A stretch of DNA of 64,000 nt from Thomasclavelia ramosa DSM 1402 (GTDB lineage Bacteria; Bacillota_I; Bacilli_A; Erysipelotrichales; Coprobacillaceae): the NCBI RefSeq assembly GCF_014131695.1, contig NZ_CP036346.1, positions 1,922,001 through 1,986,000 on the forward strand, given 5' to 3'. A program made the position numbers and the translations under genes. Shown in pieces: positions 16,911 to 27,639 of the stretch. The notes beneath the pieces are model-generated. The model saw only the letters and a program-made list of their open reading frames with translations, was not told the origin of the DNA and searched no databases. Each line of letters opens with the position of its first letter. Within the stretch, counting starts at the first letter, position 1.

Positions 16911-16941
16911 GAAAAAAACCAACTAGTATTACTAGCTGGTT
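16911..16941 (-). terminator. Terminator of obg
   Basis: An 11-bp imperfect stem (16917-16927 with 16931-16941, one mismatch) is followed by a T run on the minus strand. It overlaps the obg stop codon. Confidence 0.85.
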
Positions 16942-18223
16942 ACTCATAAAAATCAAATTCAAACTCACCGATAGCAACATTATCACCATCTTGAGCTCCG
17001 GCATTTCTAAGTGCATCATCAACACCCATATTACGCATTTTAATCAATAGTCGTTTTAATGAATCATCACTTACTAACGATGTCATTGCCACCATTCTCT
17101 CGATCTTCTTGCCAGTAATTTGCCAATTACCATTACCTAAATTATGTAATTCAAATGGTTTATCTTCCTCATCACCCATTGTATAAAGAACAGTATGTTC
17201 AACTTCATCTTCCATTGTGAAAGTTGGTGCAGTAGCTAACGCATCAGCAACCGCATATAAAACCTGATCTACACCATCATGAATAATAGCACTAATTGGG
17301 AAAATCTTAACATCTTCACCAACCTGTTTTTTAAAACGAACTAAATTTTCTTCAGCCCCTTCTTCATCCATTTTATTTGCTACAACGATTTGAGGACGTT
17401 CTAATAAACGATATTGATATTCACCAAGTTCTTTATTAATAGTAACATAATCCTCATATGGATCACGGCCATCGACTGCTCCCATATCAACAATATGAAC
17501 GATTACTCGACAACGTTCAATATGGCGCAAGAATTGATGCCCCAAACCTTTACCTTGAGCCGCTCCCTCAATCAATCCTGGTAAATCAGCCATAACAAAA
17601 CTACGTCCATCTTTTACTTGAACCACTCCTAAATTAGGAACGATCGTAGTAAAATGATAATCTGCAATTTCCGGGCGTGCTCGTGAAACAACTGATAAGA
17701 GTGTTGATTTACCTACTGATGGAAAACCAACCAATCCCACATCCGCCAATAATTTCAATTCACAAATAAGATCGAAATTTTCACCAGGTTCACCACGCTC
17801 ACAAATTTGTGGTGCAGGATTCCGTGAAGTTGCAAAACGCGCATTTCCGCGACCACCACGGCCACCTTTAGCAATTACAACACGTTGCTTATCTTCGGTT
17901 AAATCCGCCATGATCTGCCCAGTTTCTTCATTAAGAATCATTGTTCCAACCGGTACTTTAATGACCGTATCAATAGCATCTTTACCATGCATTTTTTTAG
18001 CCATCCCATTTTGACCAGATGGTGCCTTATATAATCGATTATATTTCAAATCTAACAAAGTTGATAATGAGGTCGTCGCTTGAAAAATCACACTTCCACC
18101 ACGACCGCCATCACCTCCAGCTGGACCACCTTTTGGTACATGGGCCTCACGTCTAAAAGCTACTGTCCCGTCACCGCCTTTTCCAGCTTCAACTCTAATT
18201 TTTGCTTTATCAATAAACTGCAT
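16940..18223 (-). CDS. obg: GTPase Obg/CgtA
   Basis: This essential ribosome-assembly GTPase has 427 residues. Domains in order are the glycine-rich Obg fold ([19 protein letters not shown]...), the G domain with [25 protein letters not shown] and NKMD, and the C-terminal OCT domain. ATG 18223 follows an AGAGGTGG site, so the longer frame to 18262 is not used. It lies beyond a terminator after rpmA; the spo0B gene found between them in Bacillus is absent. Confidence 0.98.
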
Positions 18224-18283
18224 ATATCCACCTCTTTTCATCTCTTTATTATTATGATACAAATAATCAGTTATTAGTACAAG

Positions 18284-18307
18284 AAAAAATCCCTTTGCAG
18301 GGATTTT
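18284..18307 (-). terminator. Terminator after rpmA
   Basis: The stem AAAATCCCT/AGGGATTTT (18286-18294 with 18299-18307) is followed by T residues on the minus strand. Confidence 0.85.
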
Positions 18308-18309
18308 AA

Positions 18310-18594
18310 TTATGCAGCTGGGTAAACAGAAACTTGTTTTCTATCTCTACCAAGTCTTTCGAATTTTACAACTCCATCAACTGTAGCAAATAAAGTGTCA
18401 TCTCCACCTTTTCCTACATTAGTACCTGGATGAACTTTAGTTCCTCTTTGTCTATAAATAATAGACCCTGCAGTACAAAATTGCCCGTCAGATAATTTAG
18501 CTCCTAATCTTTTTGATTTAGAATCACGACCATTTTTAGTTGACCCTACCCCTTTTTTAGAAGCGAATAATTGTAAATCTAATTTGAACATCAT
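18310..18594 (-). CDS. rpmA: 50S ribosomal protein bL27 with cleavable N-terminus
   Basis: This 94-residue precursor begins [19 protein letters not shown]. The extension ending LQLFA before SKKG is the Firmicutes form that must be cut by Prp so that the mature N-terminus can reach the peptidyl-transferase centre. The core [12 protein letters not shown] and GSIIYRQRG are typical of bL27. The protease gene lies immediately upstream. Confidence 0.98.
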
Positions 18595-18597
18595 ATG

Positions 18598-18921
18598 TTA
18601 CACCTCCACTTTAGATATCTTAATAAATCGACCATAGCTTTCAACCATCGTTTCTAAAGTTACAACAAGTGTCTCTAGCACCACTTGACAAACTTCATCA
18701 GTATGATTGACAACTACATTTATATATCCTTCATTAATCTCAATCGTTCCTAAGCCTTTAGCTAAGAATCCTTTTTTTGCAAGCATATTCATTGCTCCAA
18801 TACCAACAGTAGAAACACCAGCACAAACTAAATCTTTACCATATTCTCCACTGTCAGCGTGACCTGTAATACTAAGATTAACAATTTGATTATTATTTTG
18901 TTTTACTAAAACCTTAATCAT
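18598..18921 (-). CDS. prp: bL27 N-terminal processing cysteine protease Prp
   Basis: This 107-residue YsxB-family protein cleaves the bL27 leader. The catalytic pair is visible as GHADSGEYG (His21) and LVCAGVSTV (Cys33). It sits between rplU and rpmA, 3 bases before rpmA, the universal order in Firmicutes that make the cleavable L27. Confidence 0.95.
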   Translation of the reverse strand: MIKVLVKQNNNQIVNLSITGHADSGEYGKDLVCAGVSTVGIGAMNMLAKKGFLAKGLGTIEINEGYINVVVNHTDEVCQVVLETLVVTLETMVESYGRFIKISKVEV

Positions 18922-18925
18922 TTGA

Positions 18926-19270
18926 TTAAGCTTCTGCAGTTTCTTCAGCAGCTTTTTTAGCAGTTTTATTAATTGTATTGATTACTAATTTTGTATAAGG
19001 TTGTCTATGACCTTGTTTTTTGTGGTAATGTTTTTTAGCGTTATATTTATAAATAACAACTTTCTTTTCTTTACCTTGTTTTTCAACAGTAGCTTCAACA
19101 GTAGCACCTTTTACATAAGGAGCACCTAATTTCATTGTTTTATCGCCTACAGCTAATACTTTATCAAAAACAACTTTTTCTCCTGCTTCAACATCTAATT
19201 TTTCTACAAAGATAGTATCTCCGGCTTCAACTTTTAATTGTTTTCCACCTGTTTCAATAATTGCGTACAT
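18926..19270 (-). CDS. rplU: 50S ribosomal protein bL21
   Basis: This bL21 has the start [18 protein letters not shown] and the C-terminal [19 protein letters not shown]. The 114-residue length includes an Ala/Glu-rich tail ([13 protein letters not shown]) longer than usual. First gene of rplU-prp-rpmA, with its own promoter and an autoregulatory-type leader. Confidence 0.97.
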
Positions 19271-19361
19271 ATCGCACCTCCTATAATATTCTAAGACTCG
19301 CCAACCAAGGCAGCATTGCTTTAATACCTTTTATGTGCGGTTGTAGCTAGAGGTCTACAAC
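19271..19361 (-). ncRNA. Ribosomal protein L21 leader (cis-regulatory RNA)
   Basis: The 90-base untranslated leader of rplU folds into at least one clear hairpin (GTTGTAG with CTACAAC, about 19357-19334), followed by a conserved-looking single-stranded part and the AGGAGGTG site. Position and layout match the known L21 leader of Firmicutes, in which the ribosomal protein is thought to bind its own mRNA. Assignment is by context; a covariance search was not run. Confidence 0.6.
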
Positions 19362-19367
19362 ACATGC

Positions 19368-19396
19368 ATTATATTATTTTTACCCATCAAAGTCAA
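19368..19396 (-). promoter_or_regulatory. Promoter of rplU-prp-rpmA
   Basis: TTGACT (19396-19391), 17-base spacer, TATAAT (19373-19368) on the minus strand. Confidence 0.85.
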
Positions 19397-20136
19397 TTAC
19401 TTTTTAAGTTTTTTATTAAATATTGAAGTACTTCTTTTTCACTATAACCATTCCCACCAATCAAATAATAATTTTCATATGGGCGGTAAAAACGGTAGTC
19501 ATGATTAATTTTAAGCCGATGATATTGATTATCATGCATCCTTTTCAAATATAATCTGATAATTATATAACGGAACTCTTTAATATATTGATAATTTATA
19601 TAGAGCAAATAAAAATAAACTAAGATATATCCCATTTGATTATATAATACAATCAAAACTGATAAAGAAAAAATTGAAACTTTAATTTGTAACTTGACTG
19701 CTCGATAATAATCTTTAAATAATGAAAAAACTAGTAATAATATTTTTGATCCATCAAGAGGATAAATCGGTAAGAGATTAAAAACAAATACTAATTGGTT
19801 AACTGCCAATAAATATTCGCTATCAAAAAATACTTTTATTACTATAAACATTCCCAAATGAGTAGATAGACCCGCCATGACTATTACCAGTTCTTCAATA
19901 ATATGATGAGTCCCATAATCATTTAAACTCAAAAAAGCTCCAAAAGGGAAAATCTCAACTTTCTCAATTTCAAAATTAAATTTTTTAGCAAAATAATAGT
20001 GTCCAAATTCATGAGTACAGACAATAAACAAAGCACTCAAATAAGCAAATAAATTGTCATTTAACCAAGCAGCGATTAGATAAATCAAAGTAAAAGGATG
20101 GATATACCAATCACTCCATCCTTTGATACTCTTCAT
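19393..20136 (-). CDS. spoIVFB: SpoIVFB-like site-2 protease (M50 family)
   Basis: This 247-residue polytopic membrane metalloprotease has zinc motif HEFGH (H42, E43, H46) and the second motif NLLPIYPLDG with D128. In spore formers SpoIVFB cleaves pro-sigma-K in the mother cell. It overlaps the SpoIVFA-like gene by 26 bases and lies directly before rplU, as in Bacillus. No CBS domain is evident; the C-terminal 60 residues are basic and cytoplasmic. Whether this species cuts pro-sigma-K is inference. Confidence 0.88.
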   Translation of the reverse strand: MKSIKGWSDWYIHPFTLIYLIAAWLNDNLFAYLSALFIVCTHEFGHYYFAKKFNFEIEKVEIFPFGAFLSLNDYGTHHIIEELVIVMAGLSTHLGMFIVIKVFFDSEYLLAVNQLVFVFNLLPIYPLDGSKILLLVFSLFKDYYRAVKLQIKVSIFSLSVLIVLYNQMGYILVYFYLLYINYQYIKEFRYIIIRLYLKRMHDNQYHRLKINHDYRFYRPYENYYLIGGNGYSEKEVLQYLIKNLKSN

Positions 20137-20689
20137 AACTAATTTCCTTACCTAAATGTTCAAACTGTAAAACAAACTGATCTTGATAACTACCTAAAAC
20201 CATCCCTTGATCTACCTCGTCATACAATGTCACCATTACATTATCAATATTACTATAAGTAATTTCTACATCATTCTTGCCTAGAATTACTACATATCCG
20301 CTCAAGTTTTCATCATTACCAGTTGCAATTACGCGCCCAGCTTCAATACTTAATACCTCATTACTATTATTTTTATAATAGTCATCTTTAACATGCTGAT
20401 ACTCCACGCCACTAGAAACACTAACATCATCACTTGGCAAAAAAGAAAATAAATTATCAGATATCCAGCTTGTTACCGCTTTATAATTAGTATCATTCAA
20501 AATCATTTTCTTAATATTAGAATCCGGATTGATTTTAATATATGACATTGATACTAAAACCACTAAAATTACGACCATAAACTTTACCATAAAATTATAG
20601 AATCGCTTAAAATTATCATCATTTAATGGCTTTTTATTAGTGCCCCGGCGCTTTTGCATTCTTTTTCTTACATCATCTAGATCACTCAT
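20111..20689 (-). CDS. spoIVFA: SpoIVFA-like membrane protein with degenerate M23 domain
   Basis: This 192-residue protein has a basic cytoplasmic N-terminus (VRKRMQKRRGTNKK), one membrane helix (about 33-50) and an outer domain resembling an inactive lysostaphin/M23 fold (AGRVIATGNDENLSGYVVIL, then YDEVDQGMVLGSY). In Bacillus SpoIVFA anchors and inhibits SpoIVFB. It overlaps spoIVFB, and the metal ligands of true M23 enzymes are not present. The homology is distant, but the context is strong. Confidence 0.8.
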   Translation of the reverse strand: MSDLDDVRKRMQKRRGTNKKPLNDDNFKRFYNFMVKFMVVILVVLVSMSYIKINPDSNIKKMILNDTNYKAVTSWISDNLFSFLPSDDVSVSSGVEYQHVKDDYYKNNSNEVLSIEAGRVIATGNDENLSGYVVILGKNDVEITYSNIDNVMVTLYDEVDQGMVLGSYQDQFVLQFEHLGKEISYEEYQRME

Positions 20690-20737
20690 TCTATCACCTA
20701 TTCCATTATATGAATCTGATGATATTAAAGACGTTAA

Positions 20738-21517
20738 TTATGAATAAAAAAATCGACGAATTAAACTTTTCTTTTTATATTTAGCATAAGGTACTTGCTG
20801 CCCGAGTATGCGCTTTGAAATATTAACAAAACAGCTATGTAATAAATGTTGATTATTTAAGAAAATCGGCACACCACGATTATTAGCTTCAATCATATCA
20901 TGGCTATCGTAAACAATCCCTAGCAGCGGTAATGATAAAATCTCTTGAGCATCTTCCACCGTTAATGAGCGAGCTCCTTCAATATCATCAACATTAACTT
21001 TATTAATGATCATATTAATAGTATTAATTCCCTTTTTCATCAATAAACCAACAACACGATCGGCATCACGTAATGATGATACATCTAAATTGACAACAAC
21101 AATTGCTTCATTAGCTAATGAAGCAGAATATTGAAAACCTTTTTCGACTCCAGCTGGACTGTCCACAATAATAAAATCATAATCTTTATTTAATCGTTCA
21201 ATTAATGAATTCATTATTTCTGTATCTAGATTTTCAAATGATAAAGATTTACATGACGGTAATAAGCTCAATCCATCTATACGCTTATCCTTAACTAATA
21301 CTTGTTCAATTGTACAGCGGCCTTCAACGACGTCATTTAAATCATAAACTACACGATTTTCTAACCCCATCATCACATCCAAATTCTTCAATCCAAAATC
21401 ACCATCAATTAAACATACTTTAAATTTTGAAAAAGCTAAGGCACTAGCCAGATTAACGCTAACACTACTTTTACCTACCCCACCTTTTCCGGAAGTAACT
21501 ACAATAACTCTAGACAT
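20738..21517 (-). CDS. minD: Septum site-determining ATPase MinD
   Basis: This 259-residue deviant-Walker ATPase has KGGVGKSS at 11-18, DGDFGLKNLD and DSPAG motifs. The C-terminal KKKSLIRRFFYS is the amphipathic membrane-targeting helix. MinD recruits MinC to block polar division. It overlaps minC by 8 bases. Confidence 0.97.
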   Translation of the reverse strand: MSRVIVVTSGKGGVGKSSVSVNLASALAFSKFKVCLIDGDFGLKNLDVMMGLENRVVYDLNDVVEGRCTIEQVLVKDKRIDGLSLLPSCKSLSFENLDTEIMNSLIERLNKDYDFIIVDSPAGVEKGFQYSASLANEAIVVVNLDVSSLRDADRVVGLLMKKGINTINMIINKVNVDDIEGARSLTVEDAQEILSLPLLGIVYDSHDMIEANNRGVPIFLNNQHLLHSCFVNISKRILGQQVPYAKYKKKSLIRRFFYS

Positions 21518-22085
21518 ATATCATATCCCCCTTATCTAAGAATATTTCGTTGTCCTTATAATAAAGCATCGTAAGTTCATAACTTGTATAATTTCGTCGA
21601 GATACCCCATTAATTCTAACATGGGCATTTTTAAAGAATTGTCCACTAATTTTTGCTCGAGCATTTAATCCCTCAACCAATCCACTGACGCGCCCCATTA
21701 CATACAACTTTCCTTTAAATCTAACAATAGCTCCGGGATTAACTTGACCAATAATCAAAGCATCTTGATCCAATTCTAAAATTTCTCCAGCATGAACAGT
21801 TTTGTTGATTACTTTAATCTTATTTTTCTTCTCTACTTTGGCCATATTGATTCCATCAAACAATAATACCTGCTTACTAAATAATAAATCCAATAATCTT
21901 AATAATTCATGAATACTTAAAATTCGACTTTTAAAATCAAAAAAAGCCCTCGGATAATAGCCATCACTTTTAAGCAATGGTGATTCCAAGAGACTTTCCA
22001 ATTCATTCATTAAACTATTAAAATCTTGATTATCATCTAAAACAAAAACTAGATGATTATTAACTCCTTTTACTTTGATATGCAT
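21510..22085 (-). CDS. minC: Septum site-determining protein MinC
   Basis: This 191-residue FtsZ-polymerisation inhibitor has a divergent N-terminal domain and a C-terminal right-handed beta-helix (AGEILELDQDALIIGQVNPGA, then MGRVSGLVEGL and ARAKISGQFF) that binds MinD. It starts 26 bases inside the end of mreD, after a GAGGGTAAAG site. Confidence 0.92.
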   Translation of the reverse strand: MHIKVKGVNNHLVFVLDDNQDFNSLMNELESLLESPLLKSDGYYPRAFFDFKSRILSIHELLRLLDLLFSKQVLLFDGINMAKVEKKNKIKVINKTVHAGEILELDQDALIIGQVNPGAIVRFKGKLYVMGRVSGLVEGLNARAKISGQFFKNAHVRINGVSRRNYTSYELTMLYYKDNEIFLDKGDMIYV

Positions 22086-22593
22086 TGACTTTACCCTCGA
22101 ATCCTAATTTCTTGTGGATAAAATATACTGGTGCAATCAATAATAAATTAGCTCCTAACGTCGGTAAAAGACGATTTGTCAAGAAAGCTACGATTGATAG
22201 CTGCGTAACATTTGTTATCCACACTAACCAATATATCACAACTTCTTGGGCGATTATTGTCACAATTACGGCGATAAACATCTCTAAAAGGGTATAAGTT
22301 GCTAATTTAGTATATTTCTTTCCAAAAAAAGCATAAACACAATAAAGCAACACATAAATCAGTAAACTATTTGCGTAGACAATCGCATAATAAAGTCCAG
22401 TCACAGTTGCAAATATGTATCGGTGTTCATCACCAATTGTATTATTCAGCAATGTGAACATCATCAAACTAACACAAGGAACAATTGTTATTCCTAATTT
22501 ATCAAAATTATACGGTAAATAATAACTAATAATGCTATCAACAACAAAACTTAATGCCATCACTAGATAATAACGATATAATTGCTTATTCAT
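22060..22593 (-). CDS. mreD: Rod shape-determining protein MreD
   Basis: This 177-residue protein has about five membrane helices and the small polytopic MreD fold (VMALSFVVDSIISYYLP near the start). It overlaps mreC by 8 bases and minC by 26. It couples elongation proteins to the cell-wall synthesis complex. Sequence signatures of this family are weak, so context carries much of the call. Confidence 0.88.
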   Translation of the reverse strand: MNKQLYRYYLVMALSFVVDSIISYYLPYNFDKLGITIVPCVSLMMFTLLNNTIGDEHRYIFATVTGLYYAIVYANSLLIYVLLYCVYAFFGKKYTKLATYTLLEMFIAVIVTIIAQEVVIYWLVWITNVTQLSIVAFLTNRLLPTLGANLLLIAPVYFIHKKLGFEGKVNAYQSKRS

Positions 22594-23431
22594 TACTATC
22601 GCTCCTAAACACTACCGCAACATATGACAGATCATTAAAATCTGCTGCCGGCTTAACTCTAATTGTTTTTGATGTTCCATCTTCAGAAACAATAGAACTT
22701 TCTACAGTTCCAATATAAATTCCTTTAGGCGCTTTCCCACCTAAGCCAGAAGTTATTACTTTGGCATTATCTTCAAATTTTTCAACATCACTAAATAGAG
22801 TAATTTCAAAACATTTTGACTCAATGTCATAACGATTTAAAAGTCCATAAACATTTTGATCACCATTAATAACTTGAATCGGTAATGCAGAAGTAGGATT
22901 CTCTGCTGTTAATAACTGAACTCGCGCCGTCACTTCTGTAACCGAAGTAACCTTACCAATCATTCCTTTTGAAGAAATTACGACCATATCTTTGCTAACT
23001 CCAGCCAAACTTCCTAAATCAATTGTAATTTCGTTATTCCAATCATCACTTTCACGAACAAATGATGTTGTCTTAACATTATAATCAGTTGGCAAATATT
23101 CAATATTTAGCATCTTTTTCAACTCATCAATCTCTTTTGAAAGAACATCAGTATTAACTTCGACACTGGCATAAGATGATAATTTTGCTTTTAAAATCTT
23201 ATTTTCTTTATAAACATCTTTTAACTCATTATATTCACTAAATAAATTACTTACAAATTCAACTGGTTTTTTTACTACATAATACTCTATTGCAGCAATC
23301 GAATCGCTGACCATTCGCTCAAGTCCCCCTTGGGTTCTTGAAAATACCAATGATATAGTAGAAAAAACAACAATTGCTACCGTTATAATTAAAACTATTC
23401 TCTTATTTCTTTGTTTTTTACGATTATTCAA
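22586..23431 (-). CDS. mreC: Rod shape-determining protein MreC
   Basis: This 281-residue protein has a single membrane helix (about 12-30), a coiled coil (NELKDVYKENKILKAKLSSY) and the extracytoplasmic beta domain with GSLAGVSKDMVVIS and GMIGKV. It scaffolds elongasome proteins. Only 57 bases separate it from radC, so the mreB gene that normally intervenes is missing here. Confidence 0.95.
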   Translation of the reverse strand: MNNRKKQRNKRIVLIITVAIVVFSTISLVFSRTQGGLERMVSDSIAAIEYYVVKKPVEFVSNLFSEYNELKDVYKENKILKAKLSSYASVEVNTDVLSKEIDELKKMLNIEYLPTDYNVKTTSFVRESDDWNNEITIDLGSLAGVSKDMVVISSKGMIGKVTSVTEVTARVQLLTAENPTSALPIQVINGDQNVYGLLNRYDIESKCFEITLFSDVEKFEDNAKVITSGLGGKAPKGIYIGTVESSIVSEDGTSKTIRVKPAADFNDLSYVAVVFRSDSNE

Positions 23432-23488
23432 ATTACCACCTCACATCCATATCATTATAAGGCATTAATATAAAATAATCAATTATCT

Positions 23489-24166
23489 TTAAACTTCAAT
23501 AATCTTATTTGAAGCAAAACTATAAAATCTACTACGACCAATAATTAAATGGTCAACTACATCTATATCTAATTCTTTTGCCATACTATATAGGCGCTCG
23601 GTTGCTTCAATATCTTCAATTGATGGTTCAGGATTACCCGAAGGATGATTATGAACGACCATCACACGATTACTACCACAGATCAATGCTTCTTTAAACA
23701 GCTCTCTCCCACTAATAATAGATATGTTATTCCCACCAATAAATACGGTTTTTTCTTTAATTACCTCTAAGCGTGAATTTAAACATAATACAATCACTTT
23801 TTCCTGCTGTTCAAACATTAATTGATTTTTCAACAATTCATAACCATCACGCGGTTCTTTAATAGCTGACATAGCCACAGGCTGTTTATCCAAACGTTTA
23901 GCAATTTCAATAATAGCTAAAACTTCTATTGCTTTAGCTTGTTTGATTCCTTTAATCTGAATCAACTGATAATAATTGATATCATGCAAATAACGAAAAC
24001 CCCCAATTTCATTTATAACACGTTGAGCCAATTCAATCGCTGATTCTTGCTTATTTCCAGTTCTTAAGACTAATGCTAATAATTCAATATTATTTAGGCT
24101 TTCAATTCCGTGATGGAAGGCTTTTTCGCGCGGTCGTTCTTCCAATGGATAGTTTTTTAATTTCAT
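23489..24166 (-). CDS. radC: DNA repair protein RadC (JAB/MPN family)
   Basis: This 225-residue protein has an N-terminal helix-hairpin-helix region (NNIELLALVLRTGNKQESA, then LIQIKGIKQAKAIEVLAI) and a JAMM metalloprotease-like motif, VVHNHPSGNPEPSIEDIEAT. The exact biochemical role is unresolved despite the name. It overlaps the SPOR-like gene by 4 bases. Confidence 0.95.
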   Translation of the reverse strand: MKLKNYPLEERPREKAFHHGIESLNNIELLALVLRTGNKQESAIELAQRVINEIGGFRYLHDINYYQLIQIKGIKQAKAIEVLAIIEIAKRLDKQPVAMSAIKEPRDGYELLKNQLMFEQQEKVIVLCLNSRLEVIKEKTVFIGGNNISIISGRELFKEALICGSNRVMVVHNHPSGNPEPSIEDIEATERLYSMAKELDIDVVDHLIIGRSRFYSFASNKIIEV

Positions 24167-24549
24167 GATCCTAATTCTTTAATAATTGCTTCATAATCTT
24201 GTTTTTCAATAACCTCTTTAAAACTACTTTCGAATTTCGTTTGTTTTATTACACATGTGATTCCACTTTCACTAATTGTATTCCCCATGTCCTTTGCCTC
24301 CTTTTCATCCAAAAACACACCTGTTATCACTACGAAATTATTATCTTTTTGATACTTATAATTCGGTTTCCCTAAATCTGATAACTTTTTTATCATTTCA
24401 TTAGCGTTTTCATCTTGTTTATATATTCCTACTTGAACTATGTAAGTATTAATATAACTATTGATCGTTGAAAAAAACTTCAAATAGATTCCACAAAAAC
24501 AAATTGATAAAGCAACTGCTAACACTACTACAAGTCTTACTATTTTCAT
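24163..24549 (-). CDS. Membrane-anchored SPOR-domain-like protein, SpoIIB position
   Basis: This 128-residue protein has a short N-terminal membrane helix (LVVVLAVALSICFCGIYL) and an SPOR-like domain (about 36-105): YIVQVGIYKQDENANEMIKKL, then FVVITGVFLDEKEAKDMGNTI. SPOR domains bind denuded septal glycan. In Bacillus the gene beside radC is followed upstream by spoIIB, which encodes an SPOR protein acting at the sporulation septum. This protein is much shorter, so SpoIIB equivalence is a positional inference. Confidence 0.72.
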   Translation of the reverse strand: MKIVRLVVVLAVALSICFCGIYLKFFSTINSYINTYIVQVGIYKQDENANEMIKKLSDLGKPNYKYQKDNNFVVITGVFLDEKEAKDMGNTISESGITCVIKQTKFESSFKEVIEKQDYEAIIKELGS

Positions 24550-24598
24550 CTTGCACCTCCAAATCTAGTATATGTTAGCAGTTTATAAATATGCTCAA

Positions 24599-24736
24599 TT
24601 AACGTGTAATTGAAAAACGTTTTCTTAATAATTTAGCAACGCTATAACCAGCAGCTACAGCTACTAAAGAAATCACATAAACAATCGCTCCGCCACCATT
24701 GATCTTTTGCTGAGATGTAATCGATAATTCTTTCAT
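24599..24736 (-). CDS. Double-glycine-leader peptide 2 (bacteriocin-like)
   Basis: This 45-residue peptide starts at ATG 24736: leader MKELSITSQQKINGGG, then a hydrophobic, strongly basic segment ending KLLRKRFSITR (net charge about +6). The leader fits the class II bacteriocin/peptide pheromone pattern (ELxxxxxxxIxGG). The mature part, about 29 residues, would be a membrane-active helix with GYSVAK. The stop of peptide 1 is 2 bases before this ATG (TAAAATG), so the pair is translationally linked. No peptidase-transporter or immunity gene is recognised nearby. Confidence 0.72.
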   Translation of the reverse strand: MKELSITSQQKINGGGAIVYVISLVAVAAGYSVAKLLRKRFSITR

Positions 24737-24737
24737 T

Positions 24738-24896
24738 TTAACGCCACTCGATTGAAATAATTTTAGGAATCGATACACGTCCAGCCCCCGAACGAAACAT
24801 CTTATAAATTGCAGTTCCAATTACGACACAAAAGAAAAATCCCGTAACACCACCGCCCATTACTTCCATTTGCATACATTGCTGTAATTCATTCAT
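24738..24896 (-). CDS. Double-glycine-leader peptide 1 (bacteriocin-like)
   Basis: This 52-residue peptide starts at ATG 24896, set by a strong GAGGAGG site 7 bases upstream. The leader MNELQQCMQMEVMGGG precedes a hydrophobic stretch (VTGFFFCVVIGTAIYKMF) and a polar end with RSGAGRVSIPK and a terminal EWR. The 16-residue leader with GGG matches the partner peptide in length and cleavage point. Such paired small genes are typical of two-peptide bacteriocins or secreted signals; the function here is unproven. Confidence 0.72.
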   Translation of the reverse strand: MNELQQCMQMEVMGGGVTGFFFCVVIGTAIYKMFRSGAGRVSIPKIISIEWR

Positions 24897-24993
24897 TTTT
24901 CTTGCCTCCTCTTTTGAATTTAAGGTCACACTCACCACTAAACCTTATATTATTATTTACTGCAAGAAAATAATTTTTACTTTTAAAAATAGA

Positions 24994-25019
24994 AAAAAGA
25001 TGAATTTCTTCATCTTTTT
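24994..25019 (-). terminator. Terminator of valS
   Basis: The stem AAAAAGATGAA/TTCATCTTTTT (24994-25004 with 25009-25019) overlaps the valS stop and precedes a T-rich tract on the minus strand. Confidence 0.85.
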
Positions 25020-27639
25020 ACATTTGTTCTAATTTTTCTTTTACAGCATCATACTTAGATTGATAATCCGCTAATTTATTTCTTTCTAGTTCAACTTTTT
25101 CTTTTGGAGCTTTTGAAGTGAACTTCTCATTTGCCAACATATTTTGACAACGTTTAATTTCTCCTTCTAACTTTTTAAGTTGATTAGCTAATTTTTCTTT
25201 TTCAGCATCTTTATCAATATAATCCCCTAATTCAACTAATAATGAATTGCCACCTTTAATTGTAATATTTGCAACCTCACCAGCAGCATTAAGATTATAA
25301 CCTGAACAAACTGCATTACATAATTTCTTGATGTAAGGTAAACATTTATTTAACAATCCTTCTAGATCATCGTTTTTAGTATTGATCACGTATGGCACTT
25401 CAATTGCATTTTTAATCGTATATTGTGTTCTGATTTCACGGATACCTTTTACAATATCGATTAAATATGTAAATTGATCATTAATACTTTCATCAGTAAA
25501 ATGATCATTTACTTCTGGCCAGATAGCAATACAAATAGATTCTTCTAAATGTGGAATTGCCTGGAAGATTTCTTCAGTTACAAATGGCATGAATGGATGC
25601 AGCATTTTAACAATCGCATTTAAAACATAAACTAATGTATTTAAACTTGCCTGTTTTTCTGTATCATTAGTACTATTTAAATGTACTTTTGTAAGTTCAA
25701 TATACCATGAACAGAAGTCATCCCAAATAAATTTATATAACTCACTACCAACATTAACAAATTCAAATTTATCCATGTTAATATCTACTTCACGAATCAC
25801 TTCATTTAAACGATTTAAAATCCATTTATCACAAAGATTTAGATTATCAAATGATAATTCTTCAAATTTCATTTCATCATCAATATTCATTAAAACAAAA
25901 CGAGCACTATTCCAAATTTTATTGATAAAGTTCCATGATGCTTCTAATTTTTCCGGAATATAACGCAAATCCATTCCTGGTGCCGAATTAGTTGTTAAGA
26001 AGAAGCGTAATGTATCAGCACCATATTCATCAATAACATCCATCGGATCAACACCATTGCCTAACGATTTTGACATCTTTCTCCCTTGTTCATCACGAAT
26101 CAAACCATGAATTAAAACATGTTCGAATGGTCTTTCCTCAGTGAAGTGTAATGATTGGAAAATCATTCTGCTCACCCAGAAGAAAATAATATCGTACCCT
26201 GTAACTAAAGTATTGGTAGGAAAATAACGCTTAAATAATTCACTATCGGTATTAGGCCATCCAAGTGTTGAAAATGGCCATAGTGCACTTGAAAACCATG
26301 TATCTAGGACATCTTCGTCTTGTTTCCAGTTTTCTAAATCAGCAGGTGGATTTTTCCCAACATAAACTTCACCGGTTTCTTTATGATACCAAGCCGGTAC
26401 TTGATGTCCCCACCATAATTGACGAGATATACACCAGTCTTCAATATTTTCCATCCACTGATTAAATGTTTTTTCAAAACGTTCAGGGACAAAATTTACT
26501 TTAGAATCCTTTAACTGATTTTCTAAAGCTGCCTTAGCTAATGGCTCCATTTTAACAAACCATTGTTTTGATAAATATGGTTCAACGATTGCATTACTTC
26601 TTTCTGAATGCCCCACCTGATGCATATGTTTTTCAATATGGTCAACAACCCCAGCTGCTTTAAAATCAGCAACCAAAGCCTCTCGACAAGCAAAACGATC
26701 CATTCCTGCATATTTATGTGCCAGTTCATTCATAGTTCCGTCATCATTCATACAAATTGGCATTTCTAAGTTATATTTTTTTGCTAACGCAAAGTCATTA
26801 GGGTCATGAGCAGGGGTACATTTCATTACCGCTGTCCCAAATGACATATCAATATAGCTATCAGCCATGATTGGTAACGCTTCACCATTAGCTGGATTGA
26901 TTGCTTTTTTCCCGACTAGGTGAGTATAACGTTCATCATCAGGGTGCACAAATATAGCTTGATCGGCAAACATTGTTTCAGGACGTGTTGTCGCAATAAT
27001 TAATTGTTCATCACTATCAACGATTTGATATTTAAAATAATACATCGCCCCTTCAATTTCTTTATGAATCACTTCAATGTTACTTAATGCCGTTCTTTGA
27101 ACTGGGTCCCAATTAATGATCCGTTTCCCTTGGTAAATCAATCCTTCATTATATAATTTAACAAATACTTCTTTAACTGCTTCGCTTAAACCATCATCTA
27201 AAGTAAAACGTTCTTTAGAATAATCTAATGATAAACCTAATTTTTCCCATTGAGCTCGAATAATTGAAGCATATTCTTCCTTCCATGACCATGCTTTTTC
27301 TAAAAAGCCATCACGACCAAGATCATAACGAGAAATACCTTCTTCACGCATCCTTGCCTCTACCTTAGCTTGAGTTGCAATACCCGCATGATCCATTCCC
27401 GGCAGCCACAAAGCATCATAACCTTGCATTCTTTTATAACGGATGATCATATCTTGTAAAGTTGTATCCCAAGCATGACCTAAGTGTAATTTACCAGTTA
27501 CATTAGGTGGGGGAATAACAATTGAATACGGCTTTTTGCTAGTATCACCAGCTTCAAAATATTTTTTATCGATCCAATGACGATATTTTCCTTCTTCTAC
27601 TTTATGATGATTATACTTCGGTTCCAGTTGTTTGCTCAT
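25018..27639 (-). CDS. valS: Valine--tRNA ligase
   Basis: This 873-residue class I synthetase has the HIGH-type motif [15 protein letters not shown] (45-59), the editing CP1 insertion with [10 protein letters not shown], the KMSKS motif ([11 protein letters not shown]), an anticodon-binding domain and the C-terminal coiled-coil arm ([19 protein letters not shown]). It charges tRNA-Val. It lies 3' of a T-box leader but with one unrelated gene between, and it overlaps that gene by 29 bases. Confidence 0.98.

Follow-up and report, generated by a model that had tools for sequence, protein, structure and literature searches.

A conserved micropeptide gene beside radC whose double-glycine leader co-occurs with a C39 gene beside ybeY in Thomasclavelia and its relatives

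The stretch of DNA analysed here, referred to below as the window, comprises 64,000 nucleotides of Thomasclavelia ramosa DSM 1402 (contig NZ_CP036346.1, positions 1,922,001 to 1,986,000). Between valS and radC it carries two tiny adjacent genes, here called pep1 and pep2, which a first-pass annotation of the DNA had picked out and which are indeed present, conserved and under purifying selection. The features discussed in this report are the following.

25018..27639, minus strand: valS, the conserved upstream neighbour, seen across the loci of relatives
24905..24911, minus strand: ribosome-binding site of pep1, GAGGAGG in the sequence, 8 nt before the ATG
24738..24896 (stop codon included), minus strand: pep1, a precursor of 52 aa; open reading frame with a strong ribosome-binding site, relatives in 40/43 genomes of the family, median dN/dS 0.15
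24852..24896, minus strand: leader of pep1, residues 1-15, MNELQQCMQMEVMGG; predicted site of C39 recognition, with putative cleavage after GG
24741..24851, minus strand: core of pep1, residues 16-52; membrane helix, cationic tail and conserved SIP...W end, the part retained by leaderless orthologues
24599..24736 (stop codon included), minus strand: pep2, a double-glycine-leader paralogue of 45 aa, translationally coupled to pep1; found in 9/9 genomes of the genus, where its median dN/dS is 0.40
24163..24549, minus strand: SPOR-domain protein (PF05036, E 8.8e-10), the next gene downstream, adjoining the peptide in many relatives
23489..24166, minus strand: radC, adjoining the peptide at almost every locus examined

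The translation of pep1, from the ATG at 24896 to the stop at 24738-24740, is MNELQQCMQMEVMGGGVTGFFFCVVIGTAIYKMFRSGAGRVSIPKIISIEWR, and that of pep2, from the ATG at 24736 to the stop at 24599-24601, is MKELSITSQQKINGGGAIVYVISLVAVAAGYSVAKLLRKRFSITR. The strong ribosome-binding site and the translational linkage claimed earlier are both borne out, the latter by the junction TAAAATG, and the first 16 residues of each peptide do end in GGG. Since every one of the nine genomes in the genus repeats this arrangement, and the median pairwise dN/dS values across these nine genomes (given above) indicate purifying selection on both, pep1 and pep2 are real genes. A pep1 profile run against the genome of the window picked up pep2 at E 3.4e-7 and nothing else, so that pep2 is best read as a diverged paralogue of pep1, a faster-evolving local copy that is probably handled by the same exporter.

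By the leader consensus of PMC6363468, pep1 and pep2 both have leucine at -12, a hydrophobic residue at -4 and GG, GA or GS at -2/-1, and the double-glycine-type leaders proposed for them are judged genuine; the MMMPAN leader motif of MAM-like envelope proteins is absent from both sequences. The core consists mostly of 16-21 uncharged residues, then K or R, then a tail whose G and W never vary among the 30 cores aligned. The charge of this tail, about +3 to +4, would fit insertion with the N-terminus out and the C-terminus in under the positive-inside rule. No Pfam or NCBIfam model matches the pep1 core, a PHROGs search with the peptide gave no credible match, and the comparison with solved structures gave at best a chance match (E 0.45). 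The AlphaFold model of pep1, a long helix over residues 3-36 with mean pLDDT 61.7 and pTM 0.33, is too weak for use, and scans for promoters and terminators around the pair gave signals not above chance.

The surroundings are those of a housekeeping region. On the minus strand, window positions 16940-27639 read valS, peptides, SPOR gene, radC, mreC, mreD, minC, minD, two SpoIVF-like genes, rplU, ysxB, rpmA and obg. The names mreC, mreD, minC and minD were assigned by recognition of the translations; the order presumably resembles that of Bacillus, with the SPOR gene near the place that spoIIB takes there. A mobile or phage origin of the peptides was considered and ruled out by the fixed valS/radC synteny across families, together with the PHROGs result.

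In the family of the window, which we take to be Coprobacillaceae (Thomasclavelia and relatives), with Erysipelotrichaceae as its sister family, the profile finds pep1 relatives in 18 of 20 genera. Across the family loci examined, pep1 lies between valS and radC, often with the SPOR gene before radC, and a contig search with pep1 returned one locus, in a Thomasclavelia MAG, at the same chromosomal place. Their leaders have L(-12) in 23/23 members examined and a GG end in 22 of these. The chromosomal place had been called unexpected, but the valS-radC interval is the conserved home of pep1; the proposed search of relatives for the pair beside radC, in which lack of conservation would have counted against the first-pass annotation, found pep1 conserved there. 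Three genomes of the family are without pep1 (G016, G017 and G050). In G017 and G050, which possess the exporter at ybeY described below, a radC match is absent as well, so that the missing peptide probably reflects assembly gaps. In G016 the peptide is absent though valS, the SPOR gene and radC are retained, and the protein that this genome encodes at ybeY, of 540 aa (L127:2928-4550, G016:C83), has a C39 domain but nothing recognisable as an ABC domain, a finding that favours the link between peptide and ybeY gene proposed below. Taken together, the sequences indicate that pep1 has been conserved and vertically inherited at one fixed place.

The observation that no transporter lies nearby is true within the window, but some 210 kb away from the peptides the genome carries one full C39-membrane-ATPase exporter (PCAT), so the proposed search for a C39-peptidase ABC transporter elsewhere in the genome, whose failure would have counted against the first-pass annotation, succeeded. 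This protein of 680 aa (G000:C1:2156155-2158194) contains PF03412, PF00664 and PF00005, and its gene lies between ybeY-cdd-era and a regulator-like gene. Its closest solved structures are ComA of Streptococcus and PCAT1, and among NCBIfam models it scores highest with that of the mycoplasma Mbov_0121 family (NF045998), at 293 bits against a cut-off of 500. The PCAT was found in 23/25 family genomes first searched, and stands beside ybeY wherever the contig permits a check. No sensor kinase or response regulator occurs beside the peptides or the PCAT, apart from the sensor-less regulator-like gene next to the PCAT.

Several minor features were seen around this exporter, which occupies L003:8153-10195 (minus strand) in our locus listing. 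The adjoining regulator-like protein of 430 aa (L003:10250-11542, minus) has relatives next to the PCAT in part of the genus only (G002, G005, G008), and a huge repetitive surface-type protein, with an open frame of 2057 aa, lies close by (L003:13696-19869, minus). A second C39-like protein of the genome (L004:9319-10047; G000:C1:2371642), of 242 aa, has an N-terminal membrane segment, lacks ABC domains and stands among unrelated genes; it was set aside.

In the sister family, a refined profile recovered orthologues in 55 genomes among those sampled, nearly all directly upstream of radC or of SPOR-radC. In some of them a leader persists, in many cases with G-K, G-L, G-R, G-S or G-M replacing GG, and many are leaderless, starting at the membrane helix with a ribosome-binding site of their own and few open codons upstream; the leaderless forms retain the helix and the C-terminal motif. 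Directly upstream of ybeY, in the place taken by the PCAT in the first family, the sister family has stand-alone C39 proteins of about 110-127 aa. These are very divergent, yet catalytic Cys, His and Asp are invariant in the 14 aligned, while the upstream active-site Gln is absent from all 14, which begin just before the Cys. With PF03412, whose cut-off is 22 bits, G286 scores 56.3, and G068 (20.2), G110 (17.1) and G069 (14.6) fall below it; the protein of G069, the weakest member, reaches 19 bits against our own C39 profile. One of them also finds its best NCBIfam model in Mbov_0121, at 30 bits, so that both this protein and the PCAT fall far under the cut-off of the same model; in the papers found, no substrate of the mycoplasma family is described.

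The peptide extends beyond the order. A core-only profile detects it outside the two families; besides the sister family, four other families of the class have orthologues adjoining radC. Of 25 outer-family loci that were read, nearly all have it immediately ahead of radC, and most place it between valS and rplU. An extension resembling a leader is present in 24 of the 25: ten show GG, the others one conserved G. These extensions make it likely that the leader is ancestral and that parts of the sister family have lost it together with C39. No C39 gene near radC was found in the fetched stretches of 20 outer-family loci.

These distributions bear on the reading first offered for the pair, a two-peptide bacteriocin, which in the present version would be of class IIb and exported by the distant PCAT. 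Two coupled, short, cationic and hydrophobic peptides with double-glycine leaders in a genome with a PCAT would suit it, and some relatives in the outer families score near or above the cut-offs of bacteriocin-leader models (TIGR01847, 16.9 against a cut-off of 15.7; TIGR03949, 20.7 against 21.5), but pep1 itself matches no bacteriocin model. A bacteriocin would also be hard to reconcile with a single fixed locus that is near-universal in the family, inherited vertically, conserved across the order and beyond, kept under purifying selection and represented in places by leaderless orthologues that lack a C39 recognition signal. Moreover, pep2 is not conserved as a partner, and the adjacent genes (valS, SPOR, radC) provide neither immunity nor export, although an immunity gene might lie at a distance, as the exporter does. 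We therefore regard a bacteriocin pair as very improbable. The signalling alternative, in which pep1 would be a secreted pheromone of the ComC/BlpC type, draws on the double-glycine leader and on the resemblance of the PCAT to streptococcal ComA. It must contend with a core that is a membrane helix, leaderless orthologues that carry no PCAT export signal, a lack of the between-species diversification usual in pheromones, and the want of an adjacent sensor kinase or response regulator at the two loci, and we give it the same very low credence as the bacteriocin.

One pointer to how the leader may be used is the company it keeps. On a RadC+YbeY tree of 63 genomes, with the C39 state taken from the PCAT and ybeY searches in the first family and from a separate survey of ybeY loci in the sister family, a C39 gene stands directly upstream of ybeY in 31/31 leader-bearing and 0/29 leaderless genomes (60/60 concordant); G203, whose contig ends there, was excluded from the comparison, and G016 and G031 are without the peptide. 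This co-occurrence, like the conservation and the synteny of pep1, is read directly from the sequences. Leaders of relatives keep L(-12), the hydrophobic residue at -4 and G(-2). Outside the tree, G192 agrees in having both leader and C39 gene, and G189 (L147, G189:C7:11600-14800) may be an exception, its peptide having an odd GGA-containing N-terminal extension (MKSMIIGLGSVMFGGA) although a C39 gene is missing from its ybeY locus. As leaderless G087 and G120 possess ordinary PCATs elsewhere, the link appears specific to the ybeY-linked gene.

Shared phylogeny alone could in principle produce such agreement between an unrelated leader and C39 gene, for the tree requires just four changes, of which two are forced by well-supported branches, and with so few independent events an independent-pairs test is powerless. 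All four changes are nevertheless concordant, including that of G221, the lone leaderless genome within a leader-bearing clade; the form of the C39 protein and that of the leader shift together between the two families; and the pep1 profile matches nothing but pep2 elsewhere in the genome of the window, where no other gene is known to encode a substrate of the PCAT. Coincidence is thus improbable in our estimation.

We consider it fairly probable that pep1 is the precursor of a conserved housekeeping membrane micropeptide, whose leader is bound and cut by the unlinked C39 protein from the ybeY side, and whose core is thereby released or exported and probably acts in the envelope of the producer. 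In this scheme, the C39 peptidase encoded at the second conserved place, directly upstream of ybeY, would bind the 15-residue double-glycine leader and cut it. In the family of the window, where C39 is part of a full PCAT, the core would be cut and exported or put into the membrane; in the sister family, with C39 lacking a transporter, removal of the leader would be intracellular; and in lineages without the ybeY C39 gene the leader is gone and the core would be made directly. On this view function would reside in the core, with the leader serving as a tag dependent on C39. Cleavage, location and function in the envelope are all deductions from sequence. The core most likely acts in the envelope of its own producer and not as a weapon or signal, perhaps working with the SPOR, MreCD and Min machinery encoded alongside; housekeeping-like conservation and the neighbouring SPOR, mreC, mreD, minC and minD genes hint at such a role, a weak step in the argument. 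More tentative, and in our judgement rather doubtful, is the broader proposal of a class-wide membrane micropeptide gated by a removable double-glycine tag, which a C39 protein encoded elsewhere, whether or not joined to an ABC exporter, would cut to allow membrane entry and action on the shape or division machinery of the cell itself; lineages losing the protease would lose the tag as well and produce the active core directly.

Cutting by the stand-alone proteins is an uncertain part of this scheme, as they have no upstream Gln and several leaders show G-X in place of GG. The same two features, with leaders often ending in G-K, G-L, G-R or G-M, would favour a C39 protein that holds the leader as a chaperone or tether without cutting it, at least in the sister family. 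On the other side, Cys, His and Asp persist in all 14 aligned proteins despite their great divergence, as catalysis would lead one to expect, and the isolated C39 domain LahT150 cuts leaders, so cutting without a transporter is possible; the LahT150 data leave the role of the upstream Gln open (PMC6363468). Binding without cutting is accordingly unlikely, if less so than the alternatives above. LahT150 and the sister-family proteins are alike in being C39 without a transporter and in keeping Cys-His-Asp, but LahT150 is a laboratory truncation (PMC6363468), whereas the latter occur in nature, with an N-terminus just ahead of the Cys and no upstream Gln.

Returning to the proposed housekeeping micropeptide, its likeness to known substrates of PCATs (class II bacteriocins and ComC/BlpC, with transporters such as PCAT1 and ComA) lies in the leader, with L(-12), a hydrophobic -4 and G(-2)G(-1), and in a full C39-membrane-ATPase PCAT in the genome. 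Unlike the usual systems, pep1 and its PCAT are unlinked, both at fixed places of the core genome; orthologues of pep1 occur with a transporter-less C39 or without a leader, and no genes for immunity or sensing are seen beside them. The leaderless orthologues resemble small single-helix bacterial membrane proteins, at about 40 aa with one helix and a short conserved tail, and a protein of that kind bearing a double-glycine leader in part of its lineages is not known to us. Among the published cases found, the nearest is MAM of Faecalibacterium duncaniae, an abundant, genus-wide envelope protein that is not a bacteriocin and whose double-glycine leader is thought to be cut by a PCAT that exports it (PMC12184118). 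MAM has about 135 aa, is adjacent to its PCAT and is mostly confined to Faecalibacterium (PMC12184118), whereas pep1, of 52 aa with a single membrane helix, is encoded at a distance from its PCAT and occurs much more widely. An open-access literature search found no description of the pep1 family, which is present in many gut bacteria and had been neither named nor annotated. C39/double-glycine systems are usually treated as bacteriocin or pheromone machinery, and here the substrate would be an old core gene; leader-based genome mining can mislabel genes of this kind as bacteriocins. With two fixed places changing together, pep1 and the ybeY C39 gene offer a natural experiment that separates leader, protease and transporter, and the case may serve as a lead for other orphan PCATs, such as those of mycoplasmas.

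Finally, the interval next to pep1 is itself variable. Outside the genus, pep2 is replaced, multiplied or missing: four pep1-like genes occur in G014, two additional double-glycine peptides in G010 and a different coupled peptide in G020. In genus g7 (L039 = G014:C98:1-2130; also G051, G052 and G053), three or four tandem pep1-like genes stand instead of one, and these tandem copies suggest that local duplication of the pep1-like peptide is recurrent.
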